Part shown: positions 1,384 through 14,238 of the stretch, in pieces
How the letters are laid out: the number at the start of each line of letters is the position of its first letter
How positions within the stretch are numbered: position 1 is the first letter of the stretch
Assembly (NCBI GenBank): GCA_017538685.1
Contig: JAFYIK010000027.1
Coordinates: 1-14,238 of the forward strand
Direction of reading: 5' to 3'
DNA: 14,238 nucleotides
From: Bacteroidales bacterium
Lineage (GTDB): Bacteria > Bacteroidota > Bacteroidia > Bacteroidales > UBA932
Translations under genes and position numbers: made by a program
The notes under the pieces: generated by a model
What the model saw: only the letters and a program-made list of their open reading frames with translations
Told to the model about the DNA's origin: nothing
Databases searched by the model: none

Positions 1384-1752
1384 ATGAGAGGACCATCAAC
1401 ATTCGAAGACCTTGCTGCCGTCATCGCAGTGTGTCTTGCAACGGCCCGTGAAGACGGAAACTTTGAAGAGATCGAGTTCAAGGCAATACTGGACGGACTC
1501 AGGGCGCAGTATAATTTCGAAGGACGCGACGACCTTCTCGCGGACTATATCAAGTATGCCGATCAAATGGATCTCAACGAAGCAGTCGAGCGCATCAAGA
1601 GGTTCGATGCGGACGAGAAGCAGTTTGCCTCCGATATGCTCTTTATGGTGATCGCATCGGACGGCAAGCTCGACCCTACGGAGGAGGAGATCTACAAAGG
1701 AATGATCGACGTGTGCGGACTTCCGCTTTTCACAGGCGCAGCCCAGCTTTAA
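1384..1752 (+). CDS. TerB-like domain protein, first gene of the operon
   Basis: Small acidic, all-helical protein (122 aa) that looks like a stand-alone TerB-like domain, the family named after a tellurite-resistance gene and often found in stress operons. Two helical halves each carry the characteristic acidic turn: REDGNFEEIE around residues 22-31 and ASDGKLDPTEEE around 91-102, where Asp24 and Asp93 are candidate metal-binding positions. There is no signal peptide or membrane segment, so it should be cytosolic. The segment ending in VCGLP recurs as LCGLP in the next gene, which suggests paralogy. It follows the divergent intergenic region and is 6 bases from the next ATG, so it probably opens the operon. 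Metal binding is known for relatives; a role as a sensor or adaptor here is inference. A direct tellurite-resistance role should not be assumed. Confidence 0.78.
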   Translation: MRGPSTFEDLAAVIAVCLATAREDGNFEEIEFKAILDGLRAQYNFEGRDDLLADYIKYADQMDLNEAVERIKRFDADEKQFASDMLFMVIASDGKLDPTEEEIYKGMIDVCGLPLFTGAAQL

Positions 1753-1758
1753 AGAGTT

Positions 1759-2577
1759 ATGACAGTCACATTCGAAACCCTCGGCGCGATCTACAGAATC
1801 GCAAAGTACTTCATTTTCGTCGACGGCGAACTCACGGAAGAGGAAGTAAAACCCATCTTCGACTGGTTCCAGACTTTCCCGGACATAGACAAGGAAAAAC
1901 TGGACTACATAATAGATCTCGGCGAGAATAAGATTACTGACGAGCGTGCGATCGAGCTTATCTCGAAACTCGAGCCGGACGGAAAGCAGCAGATGTCCAA
2001 TCTCTTTGCGAAGATAATCTGCGCTGACGGAGAACTCACTGAAGGTGAGAAGAATATGTTCTTCAAGGTGCAGGATCTTTGCGGTCTTCCCGATCCCGTA
2101 AGCGAAGGCGCGCAGGAGGAGGAAGCCCCCGAAGAGCCGGCAGAAGAAGAGGACGACGATGATTCGATCATCCCGGCCTTCCTCGTGGCCACCTGCCAGG
2201 GAATAGTCACCGTCAAGCAGAGCGAGAATGAAAACTGGAGGGAGCTCGAAGACGACCTGTCGTCGTGGATAGGCGCCAACGGAATTGAGATCGTGCGTTT
2301 CACCCCGGCTCTCAACCAACTCTCTGAAGATCTGCGCCTGAATGAGCGTCACCTTGTGTTTATGCTGGACCGCAACCCAGGTTTCAAAACCCGCGGAGAC
2401 AATATGACCGCCAGCATCCTCTATGGCAGGGGCTATCCCATCTACGGTGACATCATTTTCGGCCTGGAGACAGATAAGGGATACGAAATCGAAGGAGTCC
2501 GCTCCAGGTCGCTTCTTGTCGAGATCTTCGAGAAGGTGAACGCCGCTGTGAACGGCCTGCTGAGAGTGCAGCAATAA
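1759..2577 (+). CDS. TerB-like protein with acidic linker and unrecognised C-terminal domain
   Basis: A 272-residue cytosolic protein in three parts. Residues 1-112 form a second TerB-like domain, with acidic turns FVDGELTEEE (Asp22) and CADGELTEGE (Asp90), closely resembling the preceding gene. Residues 116-135 are an almost wholly Glu/Asp linker ending in four Asp. Residues 137-272 form a compact alpha/beta domain I do not recognise with confidence. Its most distinctive stretch is NMTASILYGRGYPIYGDIIFG near 211-231, which recalls DUF3846-type proteins only weakly. There is no secretion signal or membrane segment. The stop is followed after one base by the ATG of the zinc-ribbon gene, so the genes are translationally close-coupled. 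Function is unknown; an adaptor joining a TerB-like metal-sensing unit to another binding domain is an inference. Confidence 0.72.
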   Translation: MTVTFETLGAIYRIAKYFIFVDGELTEEEVKPIFDWFQTFPDIDKEKLDYIIDLGENKITDERAIELISKLEPDGKQQMSNLFAKIICADGELTEGEKNMFFKVQDLCGLPDPVSEGAQEEEAPEEPAEEEDDDDSIIPAFLVATCQGIVTVKQSENENWRELEDDLSSWIGANGIEIVRFTPALNQLSEDLRLNERHLVFMLDRNPGFKTRGDNMTASILYGRGYPIYGDIIFGLETDKGYEIEGVRSRSLLVEIFEKVNAAVNGLLRVQQ

Positions 2578-2578
2578 A

Positions 2579-3478
2579 ATGGACGAAAAAGTCAGGACTC
2601 GCGAACGAACCAAGGCTTCGGTCGCGACCGCGACGGCGGCAAACTCCGGGCCCTCCGTAAACGAGGGCTCGGGAGTCTGCCCGCACTGCGGCGCGACGAT
2701 AGAAGAAGGCCTCGAATTCTGCCCCGTCTGCGGAGCGAAGCTGGTGGATTACTGCACTTTCTGCGGCGCCACGATGCGGCCGGACGACATAGACTGCCCG
2801 GAGTGCGGAATGCCCGCTGAAGGCGTGATCTGCCCCAGCTGCCACACCCGTAATCACCGTGCTTTCTGCGGGCAGTGCGGCCAGCCGCTTTCCCGCGCCG
2901 CGCGCATCGCCGTGGACAGGGCCAAACGCGAACCTGCGGTCCAGCAAGCTGCGAAAGCCCTGATGCGCATCGCCGAGCTCGAAGCGGAGCTGGACGGTGC
3001 GGAACCGGAGCCTGGAGAGGAAACGCTCGAGCCCACGGAGGGCGAACTCCGTATGCGCGAGCTGATGGGCAAGGTCGGGTTCAAGCCCGCCGAGCTTCCT
3101 GTGTCCGGGCGCCCGGACACCAAGCGCAGCCGCGCCGAGATTCTGGCCGAGTACCAGAAAGCGGTGGAGGATGCGAACAAAGCTATGGAAGAGATGCTGC
3201 CGCCGGCAGGGATGACTCCGCAGGAGCAGCGCAATTATTACACGGCCCGCAAGGTGGCCGTGATGGAGACCGTGCAGGAAAGCTGGCGCGGTATCCCGAT
3301 GCGGGAGTCGATGGCCTGGGAGTGCAACTACTGCCACGTCCTGCACAACAACCCGCACGAATGTGCCAAGCCCGGCCTTGGCGGCAGGTGGGTGCCCTGC
3401 ACTCAGTGTGAAGTCGTGAGGAGCGGCGGGCAGATCTTCACCACCAACGTCGAACGCAAAGTCTATAAACGTGTGTGA
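2579..3478 (+). CDS. Multi-zinc-ribbon protein
   Basis: A 299-residue protein dominated by zinc ribbons. Three consecutive four-Cys ribbons can be read: Cys34/37/48/51, Cys59/62/73/76 and Cys85/88/97/100, each a pair of CxxC knuckles (CPHC, CPVC, CTFC, CPEC, CPSC, CGQC), as in double-zinc-ribbon proteins. The middle (about 105-240) is charged and helical, rich in Glu and Lys, perhaps coiled coil. A fourth Cys cluster near the end (CNYC at 249-252, Cys262, CTQC at 274-277) looks like a further zinc site. No catalytic motif is visible, so a scaffold or adaptor is most likely. The first ribbon closely resembles those at the N-termini of the AAA and FHA proteins of the same operon, suggesting a shared docking role. 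The start is the ATG one base after the previous stop. Confidence 0.8.
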   Translation: MDEKVRTRERTKASVATATAANSGPSVNEGSGVCPHCGATIEEGLEFCPVCGAKLVDYCTFCGATMRPDDIDCPECGMPAEGVICPSCHTRNHRAFCGQCGQPLSRAARIAVDRAKREPAVQQAAKALMRIAELEAELDGAEPEPGEETLEPTEGELRMRELMGKVGFKPAELPVSGRPDTKRSRAEILAEYQKAVEDANKAMEEMLPPAGMTPQEQRNYYTARKVAVMETVQESWRGIPMRESMAWECNYCHVLHNNPHECAKPGLGGRWVPCTQCEVVRSGGQIFTTNVERKVYKRV

Positions 3479-3480
3479 GT

Positions 3481-6400
3481 ATGGCAGAAGAGCCCCAGAA
3501 AACCCAGTCGATCCAGAAGACTCTGGCGGCCATCCAGAAGACGGTGGCTATCCAGAAGACGGCGGCGGCGCTGAGCAGGCCGGGAGAGCCGCTCAAGCCC
3601 TCCGTCTCCGCGCACAAACCCGGAGAGGAGGTCACCGTCGGCGGAAAGACCTACAAAATCGAGAAGGTCCTGGGAAGCGGCTCCGAGGGAGACCTGTATG
3701 TGGTCACCGACGGCTCACGCCGCTACGCTCTAAAACTCTGCCACGAAGGCTATAATACCAACAAACAGGTTCTTCAGCGCCTGGAAAAGCTGAAGGGAAG
3801 GGGGTACATAGTAGACATCTTAGACTACGGCGACGATTACGAGCTGATGGAGTATGTTCCTGAGGGCAACGCTGCCGCCGCAGGCCTTAAAGGGAACGCG
3901 GAAGCGATACTCGCGATAACCCTCAAGATCGCCATCGTCCTTGACGAGATGCACAAGGCGGGCGTGTTGCATAAAGACGTAAAGCCCGCAAACATCCTCA
4001 TTCGCCGGAAAGACGACTGGGACACGGTCCTGTGCGATTTCGGCATCGCGGATGAGATCAACTCCCGCGGCACCTGCATCACCAACCAGGTCCGTACCCC
4101 CATCTATGCCGCACCGGAGGTTTACACTGACACCGTCACACTTCCCGAGGGAGTTTTCATCGAGCTCTCGCCAAAAGCGGATTTCTACTCGCTGGGTATG
4201 ACCATACTCTCGCTCTGGATGGGAGAGGGGGCGTTCGGAGCCAGGGAGGCCGAGCTCGCGCTCGACAAGAAAAAGGGCCGCATAGTCATCCCGGCCGATA
4301 TGCCTGACCCGCTCGCGAAGATATGCCGCGGCCTGCTGATTCAGAACCCCGCCAAGCGCTGGGATTACCCGGAGATAGAGCGGACGATGGACGGCGAGGA
4401 CGTGCCAGTGGAGGAAGACGCCATCAACGAAGACCTGAACATAACCTACAACGCTTCGAAGCGTCAGATCGCGAACACCCCGCAAGAGTTGGCTATGCTT
4501 ATGCTCGAGGACGAAAGCGACCTGGCGGTCAAATACCTTTACCGCGGCCAGGTGGAGCGCTGGCTCAAACCCTACCCCGAGCTCGCGCTTGAAGTGCAGG
4601 ACATAGTGGAAAAGCGCTACCCGCAGGACCAGAGTACCGGCCTGTTCGCCACCATCTTCCTGCTGGACCCCACGATCCCGTTCCCCCTGAGCGGATATTC
4701 CAGGACCACTGGCGCGACGACGGCCGCGAGCGCGGTCACCCTGAAGGACGTCAGCAATTACTGTAACGATTCGCATCCGGATGAAGAGACTGTCAGCCGT
4801 CTCTGCCAGGATGTTTTCAAGGAATGGGTGCGCGTGCGCAGCGCCTCGATAGCGGACAGTTTTCCTCCCTCGCGCGACACTATGGACGTGTTTATGCTCC
4901 GCGTGCAGCTTCTCGACCCGCTCTCGGACATAAACCTGATAAACAACCCTTCCGACCCCGACTACGCGATGACGCAGGAGGGCCTGGGCCGTCTGTTCAA
5001 CAAAATCTACAACGCCTACTGGACCAACGGCGGGTCCCTGGACACCTTCCGTAAGGAGTGGCCGAAGCAGAAGAACGCCCCGCTGAACGGCAGGATTATG
5101 CTGGAGACGGTGGTGAACGTGGTCTGTAACTTTCTTCAGCCGGAGGACTATCACTATGTCACCGACTTTATGGACACCAAAGGCGACCGCTTCCGCAGGC
5201 AGCGTTCTTGGTTCGTCTACTGCACCGACCGCAATTCTGACGACTACCGCAAGAAATGCGGCCCGAAGGACGATACCTTCAGGGTGCAGGCGGCGTGGAT
5301 GAAAGTCATCAAGGGCTTCGGCGTCTCTCCTGAACTCCAGCTCCAAAGCGGAGCGACAGTGAAAACAAGGTCCGCGCTTTTCTCGCATTCTTCGAGGACA
5401 CTGCGCAAGGAATACAACGACGGCGGTCTGAGGGGTTTCCTGGCAGTCTGCCATCAGGAGGACCCCAATGCCGACCTCAAGCCCCAGTTCGCCTACGAAC
5501 GTCTGCTGAAAGACTATCTCGACGACCTTCGCAGGATAGACGACACGCTCCGGCCGGTGACCCGTTTCGACTATGCGGAAAAAGAGGCGGATAAGATACT
5601 TTCCTCAGGCAAAAGGCAGATAGGCGTACTCAATTTCAGGAGCGTGCTGCAGATTGTCCTCGCCGTTCTGTTCGGAGTGCTTCCTCTGCTGCTGATGCTC
5701 ACAGTGAGCGTGTTCTCGATAGTCGAACATCCCGTCCTGGAAGTAAGCTACCGCTGGGCTGAAAAAGTCGGCTGGGTGCTTGGAATAGTGATAGCGGGAG
5801 GCATATTCTTTATGATGGACACGGACGGCTGCCTGATTCCGGCGATTGGCGGAATAGTGGGCGCATTCGTGCTGACCGCGGCATTCCGGTTCTTCGGGCA
5901 GTTCATCCTCTACATCTACTCCGCGCTTCTCATCGCTATGCTGGTGCTCCTTTGCATCAAGGTGGTGTTCTTCCGCAGTCCTTTCGCGAAAGACGCGCGC
6001 AAATTCACCAAGCCAGGCTTCGACGAAAAGGTGCTCGAGCCGCTCTATTATGCCTTCTCGAACGACACTTCCTTCGATTCTTCCCTCAACGGAGCCTTCA
6101 GCGACAACGACATCACCTGGTGGAAAGACGACCTCAAGGTCCGCGGAAAACGTTTGCTCATATTTGAGGGCGCGGTGCTGATACTCGCCATTTTCAGCGC
6201 CTTCCTCCCGAAGAGCGAACGTTTCGAAAAATACACGAATCCCGTGGTGGAGAAGACCACCACCGTCGAAAAAAAGGTTGAAGACAAAGTGAAGTCTGCC
6301 ACCAAGACGAAAACCCCGGAGAAACAACCCGAGAAAAAGGCTGCCCCCGCCCCCCAGCCGAAGAAACAGGAACCGGTGAAGAAGGCCGAGGCCCCTGTGA

Positions 6401-6501
6401 CCCCGGAGCAGGATCGTTCTAATCCGACCGTGGTGAAGACCGTAAAGGCGGAAGACTTTTTCAAGACGAAGGGTAAAGAATTAAATTCCGAAACACAATG
6501 A
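3481..6501 (+). CDS. Membrane-anchored Hanks-type Ser/Thr protein kinase with long helical region
   Basis: About 1006 residues. The N-terminal ~31 residues carry four QKT motifs, three of them IQKT. The kinase domain spans about 57-285: glycine loop GSGSEG (65-70), ATP-anchoring Lys85 (ALKL), catalytic loop HKDVKPAN (Asp166, Asn170), DFG (186-188) and APE (211-213). All key residues are present; the loop is HKD rather than HRD. Residues ~290-715 form a helical region of unknown family with two LLDP motifs. Five hydrophobic segments follow (about 723-745, 764-780, 785-803, 808-829, 892-910), then a Lys/Glu/Pro-rich tail. An odd number of passes would put kinase and tail on opposite membrane faces. 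I chose the ATG two bases after the upstream stop; a GTG at 3475, with a 4-base overlap, would add two residues. The stop overlaps the AAA gene (ATGA). It should phosphorylate operon partners, reversed by the PP2C (inference). Confidence 0.93.
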   Translation: MAEEPQKTQSIQKTLAAIQKTVAIQKTAAALSRPGEPLKPSVSAHKPGEEVTVGGKTYKIEKVLGSGSEGDLYVVTDGSRRYALKLCHEGYNTNKQVLQRLEKLKGRGYIVDILDYGDDYELMEYVPEGNAAAAGLKGNAEAILAITLKIAIVLDEMHKAGVLHKDVKPANILIRRKDDWDTVLCDFGIADEINSRGTCITNQVRTPIYAAPEVYTDTVTLPEGVFIELSPKADFYSLGMTILSLWMGEGAFGAREAELALDKKKGRIVIPADMPDPLAKICRGLLIQNPAKRWDYPEIERTMDGEDVPVEEDAINEDLNITYNASKRQIANTPQELAMLMLEDESDLAVKYLYRGQVERWLKPYPELALEVQDIVEKRYPQDQSTGLFATIFLLDPTIPFPLSGYSRTTGATTAASAVTLKDVSNYCNDSHPDEETVSRLCQDVFKEWVRVRSASIADSFPPSRDTMDVFMLRVQLLDPLSDINLINNPSDPDYAMTQEGLGRLFNKIYNAYWTNGGSLDTFRKEWPKQKNAPLNGRIMLETVVNVVCNFLQPEDYHYVTDFMDTKGDRFRRQRSWFVYCTDRNSDDYRKKCGPKDDTFRVQAAWMKVIKGFGVSPELQLQSGATVKTRSALFSHSSRTLRKEYNDGGLRGFLAVCHQEDPNADLKPQFAYERLLKDYLDDLRRIDDTLRPVTRFDYAEKEADKILSSGKRQIGVLNFRSVLQIVLAVLFGVLPLLLMLTVSVFSIVEHPVLEVSYRWAEKVGWVLGIVIAGGIFFMMDTDGCLIPAIGGIVGAFVLTAAFRFFGQFILYIYSALLIAMLVLLCIKVVFFRSPFAKDARKFTKPGFDEKVLEPLYYAFSNDTSFDSSLNGAFSDNDITWWKDDLKVRGKRLLIFEGAVLILAIFSAFLPKSERFEKYTNPVVEKTTTVEKKVEDKVKSATKTKTPEKQPEKKAAPAPQPKKQEPVKKAEAPVTPEQDRSNPTVVKTVKAEDFFKTKGKELNSETQ
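3511..3560 (+). repeat. Triplicated 11-base repeat encoding IQKT motifs
   Basis: The 11-mer ATCCAGAAGAC occurs exactly three times, at 3511-3521, 3532-3542 and 3550-3560, inside the start of the kinase gene, and a fourth degenerate copy precedes it near 3493. Each copy encodes Ile-Gln-Lys-Thr, placing Thr at residues 14, 21 and 27, with Thr8 in the degenerate copy. Spacing of 21 and 18 bases keeps the reading frame. This is a protein-level repeat, not a CRISPR array. Confidence 0.8.
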
Positions 6502-8564
6502 TTTGCACACATTGCGGAAAAGAAAACAGGCCTGAAGCGAAGTTCTGCCGTTTTTGCGGCACGGCTCTCGCGGGCGAGTCGACTCAGAAGGGCCTGATAG
6601 GCAAAGACAGCATAGTCGATGAACTGGACAGGCTGGACGAAAAGCTCCGTGTCGCGAAGATAGTCACCGCGGGCGGCGCGAGGATGGGTATGGACTGCCT
6701 TGTGCTCGGCGACTCCGGCAGCGGCAAGCATTTCATCGCGCACCTCGTTGCTGACAAGATCCGCGAGAGCGGGGTGGTGAAGCAGGCTGCGAAAGAGGTG
6801 GACGCTGCGGACTGGGCCGAGTTCGCCGGCGACTTCGACAAAAACATAGCTGCGCTGAAAGACGGTATCCTCCTGATCACTAACGCGCAGAAGCTGCTGC
6901 CCACATCGAAAGCCTCCGAAGTGAACCAGTTGGACAAGCTCTTCCACCGTATGCGCAATGTGGAGGGAGCTCCGATTGTGATCCTCTGCGGCGACCACAA
7001 CGACCTCGCGAACTTTCTCGAGAACAACAAAGACGTCCACCGTCTGTTCGAATTCGATTTCAGGCTCGGCGCTTTCGGTCTCAAGGACCTCACGGACCTG
7101 ACCCTGGATCTCCTGAAGAACAAATACAAGATAGACTTCTCTGACAATCTCCCGAAGAAGCTGAACGCCCATTTCGCGTGGTTTATGCGCCAGACCAATC
7201 TCGGCCACACCAACGGCCATCTTTCCGAGATGGTGGCCGAGAGCCTCTACGTGAAAGCAATGTCGCGCGGCGGCAAGATGGTGGAGCCCCAGGACATCGA
7301 CACTTCCGAGTGCTTCATCCCTAAGACCGAAGAGCAGATACTCGCCGAGCTGGACAATTACATAGGCCTGCAGAGCGTCAAAGACGAGATCAAAGCCATC
7401 ATACGCAACGTCAAGGCGAAGAAGGAAAATGGAGTGAAGGACAAACTCATCACGGACCATTTCATCTTCACGGGCAACCCTGGCACCGGCAAGACCACCT
7501 TCGCGCGCAAGTTCGGCGAGGTGCTCAACGCCGTGGGCGCCCTGCCAACCGGCCAGTTCGTGGAAATATCGGGCAAAGACTTCATCGGCCGCTACCTCGG
7601 CGATTCGGAGGACAATGTCAAGAAATACGTGAACAAAGCAATGGGCGGCGTACTCTTCATCGACGAGGCCTACGCGCTCAACACTTCCTATGGCGACGGC
7701 CACGCCGGCTACGGCGGGGACGCGGTTAACACCCTCCTCACCCTGCTGGAGAACCGCAAGGGCGAGTTCGTCTGCATAATGGCGGGCTACACGAAGGAGA
7801 TGGGCGACTTCGTCCGTATGAACCCCGGCCTGCCGCGGCGCCTGAATGTGACCATAGAATTCCCGGACTACAGCGCCCGCGAGCTTGAGCAGCTCTTCCG
7901 CTTGCGCCTGGCGCATAACGACGAAAACGTCACCTTCACCCTCGATTCGAAGGCCGAGGAAATGCTGCCGAAGGTCTTCGACCGTATGTGGCTCAAGCGC
8001 GGCGACACCTTCGGCAATGCCGGCGAGGTCCGTAACCTATTCGACCTGGCGGTCAAGCGGCACCGCCTCCGCGGCGCTCAGGACTGCATCCTCTCGTATG
8101 CGGACATAGTGGGCGAGGATGCCACCGAAGAGATCTCGGTCGAGGACATAATGAAGGAACTCGACGGCCTCGTGGGAATGACCCAGGTCAAGGAGACCAT
8201 ACGCCGCATCGCGGGCGAAATTGCCACCCAGAAGCGCCTGATAGAGATGGGCGAGGCCTCTGAAGGCCTGACCAAATACAACTTCGTCATCACCGGTAAT
8301 CCGGGAACGGGTAAAACCACCGTCGCGCGCATCTTCGGAAAGATTTTCAAGGCGCTCGGCGTGACCGCTTCGGACAGGGTGGTGGAGAAGAAACCGGAGA
8401 ACATAATCTCCAAGTTCGTGAACGAGAGCTCGGAGAAGATGAACGATGCCATCAACGAAGCGATGGGCTGCGTACTCTTCCTGGATGAAGCCTATGGCCT
8501 CGATCCGATGGATTCACGGGCCAGAGCACCAGTTCGGAGGGCCGTGATGCAGTCCGCACTCTGA
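6498..8564 (+). CDS. Zinc-ribbon, multi-AAA (CbbX/SpoVK-type) ATPase, N-terminal part before a frameshift
   Basis: Residues 1-22 form a zinc ribbon (Cys3/6/17/20). Module 1 (about 35-265) is a degenerate P-loop unit: Walker A GDSGSGKH (71-78), but ILLITNAQ stands where a Walker B Asp-Glu is expected. Module 2 (about 290-560) is a complete CbbX-like AAA unit: YIGLQSVKDEI, GNPGTGKTT (Lys332), LFIDEAYAL (Asp389-Glu390), NPGLPRRL with candidate Arg fingers 447-448, and sensor-2-like GNAGEVRNL. Module 3 starts with LVGMTQVKETI, GNPGTGKTT (Lys606) and LFLDEAYGL (Asp663-Glu664), then the frame breaks. The last ~17 residues are out-of-frame sequence. One extra G in the GGG at 8518-8520 would restore a single ORF of about 1097 residues with the next entry. 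CbbX-type ATPases are hexameric protein remodellers; the client here is unknown. The start overlaps the kinase stop (ATGA). Confidence 0.85.
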   Translation: MICTHCGKENRPEAKFCRFCGTALAGESTQKGLIGKDSIVDELDRLDEKLRVAKIVTAGGARMGMDCLVLGDSGSGKHFIAHLVADKIRESGVVKQAAKEVDAADWAEFAGDFDKNIAALKDGILLITNAQKLLPTSKASEVNQLDKLFHRMRNVEGAPIVILCGDHNDLANFLENNKDVHRLFEFDFRLGAFGLKDLTDLTLDLLKNKYKIDFSDNLPKKLNAHFAWFMRQTNLGHTNGHLSEMVAESLYVKAMSRGGKMVEPQDIDTSECFIPKTEEQILAELDNYIGLQSVKDEIKAIIRNVKAKKENGVKDKLITDHFIFTGNPGTGKTTFARKFGEVLNAVGALPTGQFVEISGKDFIGRYLGDSEDNVKKYVNKAMGGVLFIDEAYALNTSYGDGHAGYGGDAVNTLLTLLENRKGEFVCIMAGYTKEMGDFVRMNPGLPRRLNVTIEFPDYSARELEQLFRLRLAHNDENVTFTLDSKAEEMLPKVFDRMWLKRGDTFGNAGEVRNLFDLAVKRHRLRGAQDCILSYADIVGEDATEEISVEDIMKELDGLVGMTQVKETIRRIAGEIATQKRLIEMGEASEGLTKYNFVITGNPGTGKTTVARIFGKIFKALGVTASDRVVEKKPENIISKFVNESSEKMNDAINEAMGCVLFLDEAYGLDPMDSRARAPVRRAVMQSAL

Positions 8565-9790
8565 TGGCGCGTATGGAAAACGAAGCCGGCAAGTTCGTGG
8601 TGATCTGCGCCGGCTACCCGAAGGAAATGGAGACCTTTATGAACTCCAACCCCGGACTCAAGAGGCGCTTCTCGCATTTTATGCATATCGACGATTACAC
8701 CGCCGAAGAGCTTCTCGAGATCTACGAGCGCGCGGCGAAGGCGAAGAAATACGACTTCACTTTCGCGGACGATGCAGTAAGGATGAAGGCCCTGAAGATG
8801 TTCCAGAGTATGGTGGCGATGAAGGACGACAAGTTCGGCAACGCCGGCGAAGCCATCAAGATGGTGGCGGAGACCAAGACCAACATCAACAACCGCATCG
8901 ATGCAGCTCCCTACGAGAAATGGACTCCGGAGTTCCTGCATTCCGCATACCTGGAGGATATTCCGTTCACGGAGCCGGAGAAGATATCCGTGGACGAATG
9001 CCTCGCTGAACTGAACGAACTGGTCGGCCTCGAGGGCGTGAAGACGGCGCTGACGAAGCTGGCTCACACCATCAACAACGAGATAGAGACCGCGCGGCTG
9101 GAGAACCGCAGGCCGGAAATCCCGCTCGGGCATTACCTCTTCCTCGGCAACCCTGGCACGGGCAAGACCACTGTCGCGCGCCTTATGGGCAAGATACTGT
9201 ATTCGATGGGCGCGCTGCCCAGCCCCACCGTCGTGGAGGTGGACAAGACCAAGCTGGTCGGGCGCGTGATGGGCGACACCGAAGCGATCACTCAGCACAT
9301 AATCGACACCGCTATGGGCGGCATCCTCTTTATCGACGAGGCCTACCAGCTTGCGGACGGCGGCTACGGTTCGCTGGCCCTGCAGACCCTCGTGAAGCGC
9401 CTGGAGGACGACCGGGGCAAGTTCGTTTGCATAGCCGCAGGCTATACCTACGAAATGCAGGCGTTCATCGCCGGGAACAGCGGCTTCGAAAGCCGTTTCC
9501 CTGAGCGCAACCGCATCTTTTTCGAAGACTACACCCCCGACGAGCTGTTCCAGATCTTTATGATCTATGCCCGCAAGGGAGGATATATGCTGGATCCTCG
9601 GGCGGAGAATGCCGTGCGCGGAAAGCTTACCATACTCTACAACAACCGCGGAAGGACCTTCGGAAACGGCCGCGACGCGCGCAACCTCTTCGACGAAGTG
9701 AAGAGTAACCTGGCGGCGCGCCTGGCCGAAGAAGGCCGCCCGCACACCCCCGAAGAACGTAAAACCATCAAGAGGGAGGACGTTTTATGA
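8564..9790 (+). CDS. C-terminal part of the multi-AAA (CbbX/SpoVK-type) ATPase, after the frameshift
   Basis: This frame begins inside AAA module 3, straight after its Walker B. MARMENEAGKFVVICAGYP aligns with TLLENRKGEFVCIMAGYTK of module 2, followed by NPGLKRRF and GNAGEAIKM. Codons upstream of its ATG, back to about 8519, remain open and read GQSTSSEGRDAVRTL, which fits the family (module 2 has GGDAVNTLL). The fragment is therefore the continuation of the previous entry, not a separate gene. Module 4 is complete: LVGLEGVKTAL, GNPGTGKTT (from residue 195 of this fragment, about 884 of the joined protein), LFIDEAYQL, NSGFESRF and GNGRDARNL. The ATG overlaps the upstream TGA by one base (TGATG), so coupled re-initiation is conceivable, but a product lacking the module 3 P-loop would be odd. 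The stop overlaps the FHA gene (ATGA). A sequencing or assembly error is the simplest cause. Confidence 0.83.
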   Translation: MARMENEAGKFVVICAGYPKEMETFMNSNPGLKRRFSHFMHIDDYTAEELLEIYERAAKAKKYDFTFADDAVRMKALKMFQSMVAMKDDKFGNAGEAIKMVAETKTNINNRIDAAPYEKWTPEFLHSAYLEDIPFTEPEKISVDECLAELNELVGLEGVKTALTKLAHTINNEIETARLENRRPEIPLGHYLFLGNPGTGKTTVARLMGKILYSMGALPSPTVVEVDKTKLVGRVMGDTEAITQHIIDTAMGGILFIDEAYQLADGGYGSLALQTLVKRLEDDRGKFVCIAAGYTYEMQAFIAGNSGFESRFPERNRIFFEDYTPDELFQIFMIYARKGGYMLDPRAENAVRGKLTILYNNRGRTFGNGRDARNLFDEVKSNLAARLAEEGRPHTPEERKTIKREDVL

Positions 9791-10341
9791 TACAGTGCCC
9801 CGAATGCAGAAGTCTGATTCCGGACGACAGCGCTTTCTGCGACCAGTGCGGAAAGGAATTGAAGTGGTGCCCCGAATGCCATCGCCCCAAACGCGGAACT
9901 GAGTGTCCCGTGTGTGGAAGCATTTTAGTCCCCGGAACGAAATTTCTTTCTGGTGGCGGGGATGGGGTTACCCCTGAAACCCGTGCCACCCTCGGCACCG
10001 TAAGAGGGGGGACCGCGTCAGCGGTGGGGTCGAGCGAATGCGAGACGGTTTCAGCGGCAACCCCATCCTCGCTGACATTAGTCGGCAACGGATGGAAATT
10101 GGTGTTGCGCGAGGGCGCGTTCGGTCGTGTCGGTGGAGTATGGCCCGAGCTGGGAACGTGTCCGTATGTGTCAGGTAACCACGGCCGCATAGGGAAGACG
10201 GCGAGCGGGTGGACGATTACGGACGTTGGATCCACGAATGGAACGTACATCAACGGGCAGCGAATCGCCGTGGGGGCTCCGACCCCGCTGAAGAAGGGCG
10301 ACGCGGTCCGAATAGCAACTCTTGATTTCACGGTAGAATGA
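9787..10341 (+). CDS. Zinc-ribbon and FHA domain protein (phosphothreonine reader)
   Basis: A 184-residue cytosolic adaptor. Residues 1-45 form two zinc ribbons (Cys4/7/18/21 and Cys28/31/40/43). Residues ~50-98 form a Gly/Ser/Thr-rich linker. The forkhead-associated domain spans about 100-184 with its signature residues: FGRVG (Arg114), SGNH (Ser129, Asn131, His132), GSTNGTYING (148-157, Asn151) and the final strand DAVRIATLDF. Arg, Ser, His and Asn at these places are the phosphothreonine contacts of the family, so binding should be intact. It sits between the ATPase and the phosphatase with ATGA overlaps at both ends. The likely ligand is the autophosphorylated kinase or another operon protein (inference). 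The linker DNA holds a large imperfect inverted repeat, and codon choice there (GGG, GTT, ACG) differs from the GGC/GTC/ACC preference of the neighbours. Confidence 0.9.
   Translation: MIQCPECRSLIPDDSAFCDQCGKELKWCPECHRPKRGTECPVCGSILVPGTKFLSGGGDGVTPETRATLGTVRGGTASAVGSSECETVSAATPSSLTLVGNGWKLVLREGAFGRVGGVWPELGTCPYVSGNHGRIGKTASGWTITDVGSTNGTYINGQRIAVGAPTPLKKGDAVRIATLDFTVE
9958..10070 (+). repeat. Imperfect inverted repeat inside the FHA gene linker
   Basis: Two ~27-base arms at 9958-9984 and 10044-10070 are nearly complementary. GGATGGGGTT (9960-9969) pairs perfectly with AACCCCATCC (10059-10068), and CTGAAACC (9974-9981) pairs perfectly with GGTTTCAG (10047-10054). The 4-base gaps between these blocks are equal on both arms. 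The loop is about 60 bases and contains a small ACCGC/GCGGT stem. The repeat lies wholly in the sequence for the low-complexity linker between the zinc ribbons and the FHA domain. It could be a folded mRNA element or the in-frame remnant of a small palindromic mobile element. Confidence 0.6.
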
Positions 10342-11072
10342 GACTGGACATCCAGGCGCTGTGCCATAAGGGCCTTGTGCGGGACGGCAACGAAGACGCC
10401 GTGTCCGTGGGCGGCCTGTTCCTTCGCGACGACTCCGCAGCGCTCACCGTGGACACTCCGGAAGACGGTTTCTTCTACCTTCTGGTGTCCGACGGTATGG
10501 GCGGCCACGAAGCCGGCGAGGAGGCGAGCGAATTCGCCCTCAATGAGATCAAGGAGCAGCTGAACCTGCATCAGATCCGGCCGGACAGCTTCGAGGACGA
10601 CATCCGCGAGGCGGCCCGCTACATCACGTATAAGCTGAATGGTTTCGCCGCCGAGCGCGGTCAGGCCTACCCTATGGGCTGCACCCTTACGGGCGTCGTC
10701 TGGCACTACGGCCGCACGTGGCTCGTCAATGCCGGCGACAGCCGCACCTACCGCCTGCGCGGCGGCCTGCTCCGTCAGCTCACCACCGACGAGACCGAGC
10801 GTGGTCTGACCGGCGACCCCGCAGCGGACAAGCGCCTCCTCAACTGCCTGGGCGGAGGCTCCGAAGGGAGGTTGGTCGTGGATGACATAGCCGGCAAGCT
10901 CCTTCCGGGCGACGTTCTGCTGATCTGCTCCGACGGACTGTGCGATATGGTCTCCGACGAAGACATAGAGCGCACCCTTTCCGAAGGCGGTCAGGCAAAA
11001 GACCTTCTCCGTATGGCCTGCGAGGCCGGAGGGGTCGACAACATATCGATAATAATCACTAAAATCTCATAA
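10338..11072 (+). CDS. PP2C-family Ser/Thr protein phosphatase
   Basis: A 244-residue metal-dependent phosphatase of the bacterial Stp/PppA type, expected to remove phosphate from Ser/Thr of operon proteins in the cytosol. All core motifs are present in order: RDGNEDAV (Arg15, Asp20), VSDGMGGHEAGE (metal ligands Asp52 and Gly53), GCTLTGVV, NAGDSRTY (131-138), SDGLCD (metal Asp199) and GGVDNISIIIT (Asp234, Asn235). Length matches the minimal single-domain PP2C of bacteria, with no membrane anchor or extra domain. The start overlaps the FHA stop (ATGA), and two bases separate its stop from the M48 gene. Its place beside a kinase and an FHA protein makes it the likely eraser of the same signal. 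The family call is firm; the substrate is inferred. Confidence 0.95.
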   Translation: MRLDIQALCHKGLVRDGNEDAVSVGGLFLRDDSAALTVDTPEDGFFYLLVSDGMGGHEAGEEASEFALNEIKEQLNLHQIRPDSFEDDIREAARYITYKLNGFAAERGQAYPMGCTLTGVVWHYGRTWLVNAGDSRTYRLRGGLLRQLTTDETERGLTGDPAADKRLLNCLGGGSEGRLVVDDIAGKLLPGDVLLICSDGLCDMVSDEDIERTLSEGGQAKDLLRMACEAGGVDNISIIITKIS

Positions 11073-11074
11073 TT

Positions 11075-12283
11075 ATGCAACTCAATCCCGAAATCAGTTT
11101 GGAGAAAGCCCTTGCGGGCCAGATCTACGACGCCCTTCAGGGCGACGTGGTGAAATTCGTGCTCAAGCACGCGGAATACAGCACGGACAGCGACAACTAC
11201 TGGCGCAGCAAGATGGAAGGCCACTGTATGAAGGCCGACGAGAATCTGCTCGGAAGTTTCTATAAGCTCTGCCACGAAGTCCAGGACAAACTTGGATTCA
11301 AAGAGGAAGTGGATTACTTTGTGACCGGTGATTCCACCATCAACGCCTTCTCGATTGCGGCGGAAGGAGACCAGCCCCATATCATCAACGTGAACTCAGA
11401 GCTCTTCAACCTTATGAGCGAGGATGAGCTCCGCTTCGTCATCGGCCACGAACTGGGCCATCTCATCAACAAAGACACCGAGCTCAGGCGCCTGATCTAC
11501 TTCGTCTATCCGCCTCAGAGCGTGATACCTCCGGTCACTCTTCAGTACAAGATCCATCTTCACGACAACCTCGCCGAGCTGGTCGCCGACCGCTATGGTT
11601 ACCTCGCCTGCGAGAACCTCGGTGCGTGCGTGACCGCGTTCTTCAAGATGGCTTCGGGCCTCGATCTCGAGAGGATGCAGGTGGGTATCGGCGATCTGCT
11701 GATAGACAACAGCAAGCATCTTGATTACTTCCTTCGCGGCGGCGGAATGAGCCACTACGACCACCCGGTAAACCCCATCCGCGTGCAGGCCATCAACCTT
11801 TTTGCGAACGCCGAGAACCAGGTGCAGCTTGACAAGGGTATGGACGAGCTCATCCAGATACTGCTGAAAGTGGGCAATCGCCCTATCGACGGCCCTATGT
11901 CGGTGTTCATCGCCACCGCAGGCATCATTGCTGCGAACGTGGACGGCAATGTGACGAAAGAAGAGTATGAGCACGTGGTGAAAAGCCTCTCGAACGCCAA
12001 CATCTTCCCGAAGGCATTCCTCGCGGACATCCTGAAGAAGGATGTGGACGCGCTCTTCGAGCAGTCAGTGAACCAGATACTCCAGTACGACCCGTCGTTG
12101 AAGCCTGCGCTTCTGGATTATATCGTGGGAGTCGTCATCGCGGACAAGGACATCGCGGAGAAGGAAGTCAACTTCATCTACCACATCGGACAGCAGCTCG
12201 GGCTTTCCATCAAGGAGATCTCGATGGTCTTCGCTGAAAAAGTCCAGCAGAGCTACGTCCCCTCAATCGACGCTATCAGCTAG
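11075..12283 (+). CDS. Soluble M48-family metallopeptidase with C-terminal TerB-like domain
   Basis: A 402-residue protein. The N-terminal ~270 residues form an M48-type zinc peptidase: GHELGH with zinc ligands His125 and His129 and catalytic Glu126, and the third ligand Glu168 in AELVADRYGY, matching the ExxxD pattern of the family. Unlike HtpX and most M48 enzymes it has no membrane-spanning segments, so it should be cytosolic. Residues ~275-395 look like a TerB-like helical domain, with acidic turns NVDGNVTKEEYE and IADKDIAEKEVN at the positions seen in the first two operon genes. This is the last gene of the plus-strand operon, and its TAG stop overlaps the stop of the convergent gene. 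Proteolysis of damaged or phospho-marked clients, perhaps delivered by the AAA ATPase, is a reasonable inference but not shown. Confidence 0.88.
   Translation: MQLNPEISLEKALAGQIYDALQGDVVKFVLKHAEYSTDSDNYWRSKMEGHCMKADENLLGSFYKLCHEVQDKLGFKEEVDYFVTGDSTINAFSIAAEGDQPHIINVNSELFNLMSEDELRFVIGHELGHLINKDTELRRLIYFVYPPQSVIPPVTLQYKIHLHDNLAELVADRYGYLACENLGACVTAFFKMASGLDLERMQVGIGDLLIDNSKHLDYFLRGGGMSHYDHPVNPIRVQAINLFANAENQVQLDKGMDELIQILLKVGNRPIDGPMSVFIATAGIIAANVDGNVTKEEYEHVVKSLSNANIFPKAFLADILKKDVDALFEQSVNQILQYDPSLKPALLDYIVGVVIADKDIAEKEVNFIYHIGQQLGLSIKEISMVFAEKVQQSYVPSIDAIS
12280..12283. other. Shared CTAG: overlapping stop codons of convergent genes
   Basis: The palindrome CTAG supplies TAG to the plus-strand M48 gene (12281-12283) and TAG to the minus-strand YwqG-like gene (12282-12280). 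The two operons therefore end on the same four bases, with no room for an intergenic terminator. I saw no clear hairpin with a T-run nearby. Confidence 0.85.
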
Positions 12284-12909
12284 GCCGAATATAGCCAGGC
12301 TTTGACTTTATCGAACCGGCGGGCCTTCAGCTCTGCCGGTTTTATCATAAAGCAGAGCATTCCGCAGTCGAAGAAGCGCAGGCCCCAGTCGTCGTTCTCG
12401 TCAATCTGCAGAAGAGGTACGAGCCCAGGCATCGCCTCGCGCACCTCTTCGAGGAGCGGCCCACCCAAAAGCTGGGTGTAAGAATCGCCTTCATTGCTGA
12501 AAATAATTCTTTCCGGTGCGGGGCAGGCGGGGATTTCCTCTTCCTCGTCGTAGAAGAGAGTGTGCGTGTTAAGTCCCTCGCTGACAGGAGAGTACAGCAC
12601 CTTGAAAAAATCTTTCGGCCATTCGCCCATTCCGGGTGCGGTGAAGGCATCCAGGTCGCCGAGGAAATAGTCCAGCGCTCCGAAGAAGTACAGCATTCCT
12701 TCGTGCGGAAGCAACCCTTCCGGATCGAGTCCAGCGAGGTCCGCGCACTTTATCTGGCAGATGAAGGTCAGCGGGTCGTCGAAGACCTCGCCTTCATCTT
12801 CGGCCTGCACCGTCGGCCAATCCAACTCATCCGGAAGGTCCGGGAAGCCCCACCATTTGCTTTCGCCGTAGAGGACGTCCTCCGACGGCTCGGTTTTGAT
12901 CTTTATCAT
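12280..12909 (-). CDS. YwqG/DUF1963-family protein
   Basis: A 209-residue soluble acidic protein resembling the YwqG (DUF1963) family, whose biochemical role is not established. Recognisable family pieces: SKWWGFPDLPDELDWP (about 17-32), PLTFICQIKCADL near 46, LLPHEGMLYFF near 66-76, LLGGP near 145, and the C-terminal LLQIDENDDWGLRFFDCGMLCFMI followed by PAEL. The ATG at 12909 overlaps the stop of the upstream minus-strand gene (ATGA), so the two are co-transcribed. Its TAG at 12282-12280 shares the CTAG with the stop of the M48 gene. Family members often act as small cytosolic accessory proteins; no function is assigned here. Confidence 0.75.
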   Translation of the reverse strand: MIKIKTEPSEDVLYGESKWWGFPDLPDELDWPTVQAEDEGEVFDDPLTFICQIKCADLAGLDPEGLLPHEGMLYFFGALDYFLGDLDAFTAPGMGEWPKDFFKVLYSPVSEGLNTHTLFYDEEEEIPACPAPERIIFSNEGDSYTQLLGGPLLEEVREAMPGLVPLLQIDENDDWGLRFFDCGMLCFMIKPAELKARRFDKVKAWLYSA

Positions 12910-14238
12910 ACTATCTTCTCGCCGTTGATAATGAAAGGAATATTCTTGACGATAATGGTGTCTTTGTCTGCCTCTTCGGCAATCTCCTCGAACGGCGCGA
13001 TGTCCAGGTGGATAAACTCCTTCGTCTTCAGTTCCTTGAAGTTCGAACGGTCGGCGCGCACTGAAGCGGGCGCTGCGCAGTAGCCCATAAACAGCACGGA
13101 AAGCATCCAGCGGCGATGCTCCACTTCGGAAAGCGATTCAAGCACATCGGCGGCCAGGGCGTCCACGGACTGGCGGGTGGGCTCGATGCCGAAAGCGCGG
13201 AGCTTCAGCGGGATCGAGTTCGCGCTGGCGATGCTGGAGAGTTTGTGCGCGAACGGCAGCCGGGCCCACGCCTCGTCCGGGGTCGCGCTTCCGCCGCCGT
13301 ATTTCAGGTCGTACAGGTAATTCACCCTCTTTCCGCGGAGCGAGCGGCGGAGGAACAGCGCGTCGCTGTCTTCGGAGGCCTCGCCGAAACTTGTCAGCGC
13401 ACCGTACTGCCCGCTCGCGAGCGCGGCGTGAAGCACCTCCGGGTGGTCGTTCTGGTACACGGCCACGGGCACCCGGCCCTTGTACACGGCCTTCGGCAGA
13501 TGCAGCGCAGCCGAGATTCCGGCCGCCGCGTCTTCGTAGCACAGCACCATCACCAGCTTCTGCTTCGGATCGGCCGCCCATTTCTCAAGCTGCCCGCGTA
13601 CGAGTTCGGAGGACAGGTGGCTGTCTATGAACTCCCATTCCACGTCCAGGAAATCGCCGTAGCCGTTTTTCGGCACGTAGCCGGTCCGGCCGACGGGGGA
13701 TATGTAAATGTAGTGCGAAAGGTCGAACAGGCTCTGGTGGTTCGAGACGTAATTGTCCATCTTCTCCTGCATGCCGGGGTCCACGAAGGAGATGACGGTC
13801 CGGCCGCCCTTCGGGAAATGGCAGATCTGCGCGGCCACACTCGCGATCGAACGGGCGGTGCGGGTGAAACCGGCGATCACTACGTGCAGCGCCTCGCCGT
13901 CTTCCGGCACCGGCAGGAAGTCCGTGTCCACGAGCAGCTGCTCCGCGAGGTAATCGCTTGCATTGATTATTTCAACCTGCAGGCGCGAGCCTTTCTCGCC
14001 CGGGAGATAGTTGAACACATCCATGCTCGAATGCATCTCGAGCGTCACGAAGCAGGGGATGGCGGGACCGTCGCCGGCGCAAAGCGCGCGCAGCAGCCCT
14101 GTCGCGGAGACGCTCACCGAGTCGTGGGCCTCCTCATCGTCTTCGCCGATGAGGTAGATCTGGCTCGCGGCCGGCACGCACGCGCTGCGCAGATCGTCTT
14201 CGTTGTCACGCTCGCCGCGGTACCAGATCACCCGTGAG
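12906..14238 (-). CDS. Rossmann-fold (TrkA-N-like) protein with RyR-like C-terminal domain, 5' end beyond the window
   Basis: The frame stays open to the right edge. The GTG at 14231 is probably an internal Val codon, because upstream codons are in frame and no leader is seen, so the true start lies outside. Numbering from that codon, residues 15-75 (IYLIGEDDEEAHDSV, PCFVTLE) and 117-130 (VVIAGFTRTARSIA) resemble NAD-binding TrkA-N/RCK-type folds. Residues ~360-435 (SEVEHRRWMLSVLFMGY, then FIHLDIAPFEEI and DKDTIIVKNIP) fit the RyR domain, named from ryanodine receptors and also found in bacteria, where some members join TrkA-N domains. An N-terminal membrane or channel part is possible but not visible. 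The stop overlaps the YwqG-like gene by ATGA. The RyR assignment rests on pattern only. The gene holds both CATG tetramers of the window. Confidence 0.65.
   Translation of the reverse strand, partial: SRVIWYRGERDNEDDLRSACVPAASQIYLIGEDDEEAHDSVSVSATGLLRALCAGDGPAIPCFVTLEMHSSMDVFNYLPGEKGSRLQVEIINASDYLAEQLLVDTDFLPVPEDGEALHVVIAGFTRTARSIASVAAQICHFPKGGRTVISFVDPGMQEKMDNYVSNHQSLFDLSHYIYISPVGRTGYVPKNGYGDFLDVEWEFIDSHLSSELVRGQLEKWAADPKQKLVMVLCYEDAAAGISAALHLPKAVYKGRVPVAVYQNDHPEVLHAALASGQYGALTSFGEASEDSDALFLRRSLRGKRVNYLYDLKYGGGSATPDEAWARLPFAHKLSSIASANSIPLKLRAFGIEPTRQSVDALAADVLESLSEVEHRRWMLSVLFMGYCAAPASVRADRSNFKELKTKEFIHLDIAPFEEIAEEADKDTIIVKNIPFIINGEKIV

Follow-up and report, generated by a model that had tools for sequence, protein, structure and literature searches.

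Gene content of the locus

The window (the whole stretch of DNA analysed, 14,238 nucleotides) carries eight genes on one strand between positions 1384 and 12283, called as nine open reading frames since the AAA gene is split. The intergenic gaps were, in order, 6, 1, -4 and -4 nt, then -1 nt between the two AAA pieces, followed by -4, -4 and 2 nt. An earlier sequence-only reading had proposed a single same-strand operon, and this was borne out, with gaps of -4 to 6 nt between the eight genes. Its domain assignments (TerB, zinc ribbon, kinase, AAA, FHA, PP2C and M48-TerB) were backed by Pfam, with the TerB match of g2 just under cut-off (23.1 of 24.4 bits against PF05099). The features are as follows.

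1384..1752, plus strand: g1, small TerB-domain protein, accessory (PF05099, 2.4e-9; 81-89% matches in loci L001-L005)
1759..2577, plus strand: g2, TerB-like domain and conserved C-terminal domain, accessory (PF05099, 9.3e-5)
2579..3478, plus strand: g3, double-zinc-ribbon protein, core (PF12773, 2.3e-13; 52/52 testable loci)
3475..6501, plus strand: g4, transmembrane Ser/Thr kinase, core (PF00069, 3.7e-24; catalytic residues kept)
3496..3573, plus strand: N-terminal QKT repeats of the kinase, proposed phospho-Thr docking array (from sequence)
6498..8564, plus strand: g5a, first piece of the broken AAA gene, core (PF13240, PF00004, TIGR02881 1.8e-91)
8564..9790, plus strand: g5b, second AAA piece, carrying the last part of module 3 plus module 4 (TIGR02881, 6.7e-78)
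9787..10341, plus strand: g6, double zinc ribbon with FHA domain, core (PF12773, PF00498 6e-13)
10338..11072, plus strand: g7, PP2C-type phosphatase, core (PF13672 over cut-off; NF033484 2.5e-36, 125.3 of 230 bits)
11075..12283, plus strand: g8, M48 metallopeptidase with TerB domain, accessory (PF01435 3.8e-14, PF05099 8.9e-6)
12280..12909, minus strand: DUF1963 protein, convergent neighbour (PF09234, 1.3e-20)
12906..14231, minus strand: gm10, a membrane protein resembling RCK channels, whose C-terminal part lies in the window while the rest runs beyond it (profile of relatives)

For g2, the profile of alignment A6 matched the hypothetical protein PG_1108 (2h5n) at 3.6e-19. The kinase may start at an ATG 6 nt downstream of the listed GTG, where the database homologue P0121 begins, and g3 and g4 would then not overlap. 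The first AAA piece holds a zinc ribbon, a degenerate AAA module and CbbX/SpoVK-type AAA modules; it tracks its homologue to about position 8528, and the second piece picks up by 8564. The near-identical protein P0243, which matches the first piece at 99.3% and the second at 100% identity, runs unbroken over 1097 aa, so the break is not conserved and, judged by this comparison, is local to this record.

The five-gene core, its distribution and its neighbours

We collected 72 loci, of which 18 had too little flank and two (L009 and L072) had no called kinase ORF. All 52 testable loci kept the same order and strand: zinc-ribbon protein, transmembrane Ser/Thr kinase, zinc-ribbon CbbX/SpoVK-type multi-AAA ATPase, zinc-ribbon FHA protein and PP2C. 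Such agreement is far beyond chance, and that the five genes form a real unit is near certain. The order was also found in 9/9 testable loci among 12 further ones, whose kinases showed 27-50% identity to the first set. The cassette was patchy, occurring in 7/395 sampled Bacteroidota genomes, the seed (G002) among them, and the kinase C-terminal profile alone matched the same seven genomes as the full kinase profile.

Vertical inheritance would account for the synteny in close species (L024, L025, L029 and L032) if the five genes were merely co-inherited and did not act jointly. However, the order is kept at 28-35% kinase identity over the best segment (L060, L065-L068, L070 and L071), and in matches from order-, family- and phylum-wide samples despite changing flanks, and we give hitch-hiking almost no chance.

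The core was thus found together across Bacteroidota, and not as genes that rarely co-occur, the outcome against which the sequence-only reading had set its proposal. The literature searches listed no description of this phospho-signalling operon, and the claim that no such gene set had been described stood to that extent; the cassette is conserved and apparently undescribed. What is co-inherited is the core of five, while the TerB proteins and the M48-TerB protease, also counted as part of the array, are merely frequent accessories.

TerB-profile matches occurred in 28/72 loci (within the fetched stretches), and full-length M48-TerB in 20/46 searched genomes. The M48 part of g8 is well conserved, with HExxH in 13/14 aligned sequences (gapped in the remaining one) and the downstream Glu ligand, E168, in 14/14. 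Since neither M48-TerB nor TerB is constitutive, M48 cutting of AAA-remodelled proteins cannot be the general mechanism. Of the scheme first proposed, the co-inherited phospho-signalling operon was supported, and the degradation step was lost as a general feature. DUF1963 profile matches recurred near the cassette (12/72 loci), and a Sel1-type neighbour in L058 carries a TerB domain.

Ter systems (TerB, TerD, TerC, TerY) are reportedly found in the company of kinases and PP2C. The TerB domains of g1, g2, g8 and the L058 neighbour would suit a branch of these tellurite/metal stress systems. Set against this, TerB is present in just the minority of loci given above, TerD (PF02342) was matched in 0/45 cassette genomes (controls 2/14), and TerC exceeded its cut-off in 6/45, lying on a different contig from the cassette in G044, the sole one checked. 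We consider a Ter origin improbable.

The profile of 11 gm10 relatives matched a TrkA domain protein (4gx0, E 0.005) and the ion channel CASTOR (6o6j, E 0.067), and the gm10 copy in L002 showed two hydrophobic peaks. A gm10-family protein was present in 16/72 loci and a DUF4062 STAND-like protein (PF13271) in 14/72, the profile of the latter matching Telomerase protein component 1 (5.7e-25). In some loci (e.g. L016, L018, L046 and L050) these genes lie directly after the PP2C gene on the same strand. This STAND and RCK-channel-like pair, of which the channel-like gene is present here too, is an addition to the sequence-only reading.

Such neighbours, the patchy distribution and the variable accessory genes would fit an anti-phage or interbacterial conflict system, with kinase, FHA and AAA proteins as the trigger and the STAND NTPase, RCK-like channel or M48-TerB as effectors. 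In PADLOC, MADS (mad6 kinase, mad8 AAA) gave the best kinase similarity (mad6, 87.4 bits) and one weak AAA similarity, but this likeness was only generic to kinases and AAA proteins and the kinase fell far under the curated NCBIfam MAD6 cut-off (84.6 of 460 bits). Moreover, no cassette relative was found in viral contigs, flanks were stable in the related species L024, L025, L029 and L032, and most loci had neither STAND protein nor channel. We hold a conflict role to be unlikely, if less so than a Ter origin.

Kinase, reader, phosphatase and AAA protein

The kinase consists of N-terminal Thr repeats, a kinase domain with catalytic residues conserved among aligned relatives, a predicted cytosolic helical domain, about five TM segments (counted from hydropathy and the predicted model) and a K/P-rich tail. 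Its four repeat copies read QKTQSI, QKTLAAI, QKTVAI and QKTAAAL. With at least three copies and no more than 3/300 shuffles scoring equally high as the criterion, 64/71 distinct kinase N-termini carry a tandem Thr array; among the seven that do not, L110 and L112 are clearly without a regular one. When any residue was allowed as the repeat centre, T attained the top score in 59/71 N-termini and A, the next, in 36; T beat S in 69 and S beat T in two. The motifs are lineage-specific (QKTAVAP, QGTAVAP, DKTIRP, DKTTVMDG, DKTLKPDVA, GTQRP and EPTRKA), and among the ORFs called in the 72 loci none outside the kinases had two or more QKTAxAP-type copies. Alternatively, these repeats might be low-complexity tails subject to drift.

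The middle cytosolic domain was confidently modelled, and no PDB match to it was found. Among 118 kinase homologues, 88 carry PG_binding_1 (Pfam) and L113 carries SH3_3, the peptidoglycan-binding C-terminus of relatives sitting behind about five predicted membrane segments. Pfam matched no domain in the L105 and L111 tails and no PG_binding_1 in the window kinase, which has only the K/P-rich tail, so wall sensing here would be extrapolated from relatives. The Thr array, the relatives' wall-binding C-terminus and the middle domain had all gone unremarked in the sequence-only reading.

PASTA kinases (PknB/Stk1) likewise join a cytosolic kinase to extracytoplasmic wall-binding domains and have a PP2C partner. 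The cassette instead has PG_binding_1 or SH3b in relatives, about five TM segments and the N-terminal Thr array. Identity as a PASTA kinase was rejected (51.8 of 450 bits against the equivalog), and Pfam matched no PASTA family in either the window kinase or the 15 relatives scanned.

FHA residues R114, S129, H132 and N151, which belong to the phosphopeptide site, were identical in 54/54 aligned sequences, and by these residues the g6 domain qualifies as a candidate phosphothreonine reader. The PP2C residues D20, D52, D134, D199 and D234 were identical in 56/56. Pfam found zinc ribbons on g3, g5 and g6 alike.

Judged from the intact relative L002, the AAA chain carries Walker A motifs in four modules and a normal Walker B in modules 2-4 only; relatives have three to five Walker A modules per chain, an N-terminal zinc ribbon and a degenerate first module. 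The modules belong to the CbbX/SpoVK/EccA group (TIGR02880, TIGR02881, TIGR03922), but differ in their chaining, their zinc ribbon and their sub-cut-off equivalog scores: the first piece of the broken gene reached 242.9/459.25, 305.8/422.95 and 285.6/466.65 bits against CbbX, SpoVK and EccA, piece scores only, and the second piece scored lower. Four plasmid records contain distant relatives of the AAA protein, with no kinase, FHA or PP2C match alongside.

The clustering of kinase, FHA and PP2C in every testable locus recalls the T6SS PpkA-Fha1-PppA pathway, which also pairs a membrane Ser/Thr kinase with an FHA reader and a phosphatase (PMC5995506, PMC12607579), PpkA and Fha gathering partners at the membrane (PMC12607579). 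The FHA protein was weakly TagH-like (33.4 of 120.25 bits). An orphan T6SS threonine-phosphorylation module is nevertheless very improbable: the AAA modules are closest to SpoVK/EccA/CbbX, the cassette adds zinc ribbons, a multi-AAA protein and a Thr array on the kinase itself, and TssC/VipB (PF05943) was matched in 0/45 cassette genomes, a search whose only control match was E. coli (1/14), with no match in a Bacteroidota control. The sequence-only reading saw no T6SS, TerC or TerD gene here; in the 45 genomes with a related cassette, TssC and TerD went unmatched and TerC exceeded its cut-off in the six given above. This suggests a switch akin to the regulatory portion of a known secretion system, in genomes that, judged by TssC, do not have that system.

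A proposed envelope-to-cytosol phospho-switch

We propose that the five core proteins form an envelope-to-cytosol phospho-switch, and put the probability of this at about 0.5. Through its C-terminal tail the transmembrane kinase would sense the envelope, either its peptidoglycan or the state of the periplasm; once triggered, it would phosphorylate the Thr row that it carries in its cytosolic N-terminus. These phosphothreonines, several per kinase, would be read by the FHA protein, giving a graded or clustered docking site at the membrane. The zinc ribbons of the FHA, AAA and g3 proteins may keep all three in one complex, and docking of FHA would recruit and activate the CbbX/SpoVK-type AAA machine, which would remodel a putative client. 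PP2C would remove the marks and reset the switch. Outputs would be lineage-specific: here the TerB proteins and M48-TerB protease, elsewhere the STAND/RCK-channel-like pair or DnaJ-like membrane proteins.

More tentatively, the cassette may be a phylum-wide platform, in which a receptor kinase with its own variable-copy, FHA-read phosphothreonine ladder loads a chained AAA machine; the core would be fixed, sensors and outputs would be exchanged between lineages, and the repeat 'code' of each lineage would insulate parallel systems. The exchangeable sensors would be PG-binding, SH3b and other tails, and the outputs protease, TerB proteins and STAND/ion channel.

With this switch, a compact circuit of kinase, reader, eraser and remodeller would be added to those of Bacteroidota, and genomes in which TssC went unmatched would have a phospho-switch of the T6SS type. 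The kinase also brings a domain to which the PDB search gave no match. The repeated Thr motif makes the gene list testable, as repeat number could be set against FHA docking strength and AAA activation.

The five-gene core and its spread

No gap in the + strand run of genes at 1384-12283 exceeds 6 nt, and four of the junctions overlap by 4 nt. In order, the genes and their convergent neighbours are:

g1, + strand, TerB
g2, + strand, TerB-like
g3, + strand, double zinc ribbon
g4, + strand, membrane Ser/Thr kinase
g5, + strand, multi-AAA protein, two ORFs in the window
g6, + strand, zinc ribbon-FHA
g7, + strand, PP2C
g8, + strand, M48-TerB
DUF1963 gene and gm10, - strand, convergent neighbours of the run

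The closest kinase matches (loci L001-L005) were from Bacteroidales MAGs, several of them ruminant-derived according to their titles. A gene of 247-270 aa (neighbour cluster c30), with MORN-like repeats by eye, lies immediately 5' of g1 (TerB1) in L001-L004; at this position in the window just ~146 nt (1238-1383) separate g1 from its divergent neighbour.

We anchored loci on the kinase alone (alignment A2) and obtained 72 in genome contigs, of which the Acidobacteria locus L072 was excluded as a member, its match being limited to the kinase domain. Searching the loci with the window proteins by tblastn showed g3-g4-g5-g6-g7 in the same order on one strand. Core counts were based on tblastn rather than the ORF map because the crude ORF caller at times picked antisense ORFs over FHA or PP2C. 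A kinase ORF was called in 70 loci, and all five genes were present in order in 52/52 with enough flank (1 kb or more upstream and 6.2 kb or more downstream). In L060, g3-type zinc-ribbon genes form an adjacent pair 5' of the kinase.

In wider samples (kinase profile, E <= 1e-40), matches were found in 4/199 genomes of the family, 6/344 of the order and 7/395 of the phylum (Bacteroidota), with the seed genome G002 among the matches of all three and G045 of the family sample already known. The kinase C-terminal profile, without the kinase domain, matched the same 7/395 phylum genomes and 0/149 Acidobacteriota, the latter in a search without a positive control. We examined the DNA of twelve wider-sample matches, seeds left out, and found the core five in order in 9/9 further loci with sufficient flank; L106, L112 and L114, truncated by contig ends, are outside the nine. 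Some carried an extra ORF within the core (between g3 and g4 in L105; a second AAA ORF in L111). The kinases of these further loci share 27-50% identity with the nearest first-set kinase, so the loci are not recounts. Of the genes in the sequence-only reading, the five core ones were borne out as co-occurring elsewhere, at all testable loci (52/52 and 9/9). The signalling cassette is real and conserved, and it is nearly certain that its five genes are one unit.

Core proteins and the threonine array

Lys87, Asp168, Asn173, Asp188 and Glu215 were invariant in 64 aligned kinases, barring one or two gaps. Ahead of the kinase domain stand short Thr-centred repeats in a row. The anchor motif was absent from 13 of 118 homologues. 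Of the 105 scored, 91 had two or more [QEG][KPN]T copies (maximum 11); copies were spaced 7 apart in 315 pairs, and position +1 was mostly A and position +4 mostly P. Motifs of distant relatives were EKTMRP, DKTIRPQNP, DKTTVMDG, DKTLKPDVA, GTQRP, EPTRKA and QYTAQGSAIDPNAV. After removal of 10 contig-cut kinases, 71 distinct N-termini entered a T-centred test with 300 shuffles. This test (at least 3 copies, no more than 3/300 shuffles as high) was passed by 64/71, with up to 12 copies, and by the window kinase with its four QKT copies. L044, L005, L056, L107, L110, L112 and L114 failed, although short arrays are visible in L044, L056, L107 and L114. When the repeat centre was left free, T was at top score in 59/71 N-termini, followed by A (36), K (31) and P (30); T scored higher than S in 69 and S higher in 2. 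No non-kinase ORF called across the 72 loci had two or more QKTAxAP-type copies.

Kinase residues 325-692 (window 4447-5550) were modelled as a helical domain (pLDDT 94.3, pTM 0.90) for which no PDB match was found, making it a candidate unseen fold. About five hydrophobic segments follow. PG_binding_1 was listed for 88/118 homologues and present in 8/16 kinases rescanned, SH3_3 ends the L113 kinase, and the L105 and L111 tails had no Pfam match. The window kinase has neither a PG_binding_1 nor an SH3_3-type domain, its tail being K/P-rich only. With the kinase domain inside and an odd crossing number, the tail would be periplasmic.

Clustered AAA relatives are single proteins with a median of 1099 aa (68 ORFs, partial ones counted). 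The near-identical database homologue P0243 is unbroken at 1097 aa and aligns with the first window piece over 677 residues (99.3%) and with the second over 408 (100%), so the break is confined to the window record; judging by these alignments, it is a local assembly error or recent mutation. The AAA protein begins with a zinc ribbon (PF13240), and its first module has a Walker A and lacks a normal Walker B, followed by two to four canonical modules. Walker A motifs numbered 3 in L053, 4 in L002 and 5 in L105, L108, L109 and L116; the last four proteins are ~1390 aa, and family module number is three to five. FHA residues R114, S129, H132 and N151 were invariant (54/54 aligned), as were D20, D52, D134, D199 and D234 of PP2C (56/56), where E19 was replaced by D once. 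The zinc ribbons predicted on the g3, AAA and FHA proteins suggest one complex.

Accessory genes and neighbours

Full-length M48-TerB (E <= 1e-91) was found in 20 of the 46 genomes searched, which cover 46 of the 72 loci and include the Acidobacteria outlier G046. It lay within ~11 kb of the kinase gene in 11/20 (L002-L004, L016, L019, L046, L053, L054, L056, L057, L062), for an estimated chance expectation of ~1% in 2 Mb genomes, and elsewhere in the other nine. HExxH was present in 13/14 aligned M48 sequences, the remaining one being gapped. TerB-profile matches occurred in examined stretches of 28/72 loci, with an iterated profile that also detects the TerB domain in M48-TerB and in Sel1-type proteins. 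The proposed eight-gene set therefore stood for its five core genes (52/52) and not for M48-TerB (20/46 genomes) or TerB (28/72 loci).

Among the 72 loci, a DUF4062 STAND-like protein was present in 14, the gm10 family in 16 (distant L044 and L048, 23% identical, included), DUF1963 in 12 and c14, a CXXCXGXG (DnaJ-like) membrane protein, in 8. The STAND-like profile matched Telomerase protein component 1 (5.7e-25). The gm10 profile matched the TrkA domain protein 4gx0 (E 0.005), which we take to be GsuK, and the ion channel CASTOR (E 0.067), a weak but coherent indication that gm10 may be RCK-channel-like. The STAND-like NTPase (~1020 aa) and channel-like membrane protein (~613 aa), often with DUF1963, form a recurrent module that looks like a stand-alone effector pair of STAND and channel-like genes. 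It is convergent in the window (12280-14238) and L002-L004, and 3' of PP2C on the same strand in L009, L013, L016, L046 and L050. Of this module, the window holds DUF1963 and a portion of the channel-like gene, and a STAND gene would fall past its end. A pair of c13 (lipoprotein-like, ~175 aa) and c14 (559 aa) lies close to PP2C in L006, L007, L008, L010, L012, L017, L044 and L048, with c14 a possible DnaJ-like zinc-domain membrane partner.

Known systems and a proposed mechanism

The closest functional analogue of the cassette is the T6SS PpkA-Fha-PppA pathway (PMC5995506, PMC12607579), in which PpkA and Fha assemble T6SS parts at the membrane (PMC12607579). TssC was found in 0/45 cassette genomes, so the cassette was not assigned to this phosphorylation pathway; Ter-system membership was likewise rejected, with TerD in 0/45. 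For TssC and TerD, these counts extend to the cassette genomes the earlier remark that no T6SS or TerC/TerD gene is visible in the window. Kinase/PP2C/vWA and STAND systems are named in the available parts of two conflict-system papers (PMC7159879, PMC8195603); no such cassette appears in these parts, and the words TerB and CbbX are absent from both main texts. The cassette is apparently undescribed.

We propose with moderate confidence that the receptor kinase would autophosphorylate its own Thr array, on which the FHA protein would dock and so recruit the AAA protein, with PP2C resetting the switch. Around this core, sensors and outputs would be exchangeable.
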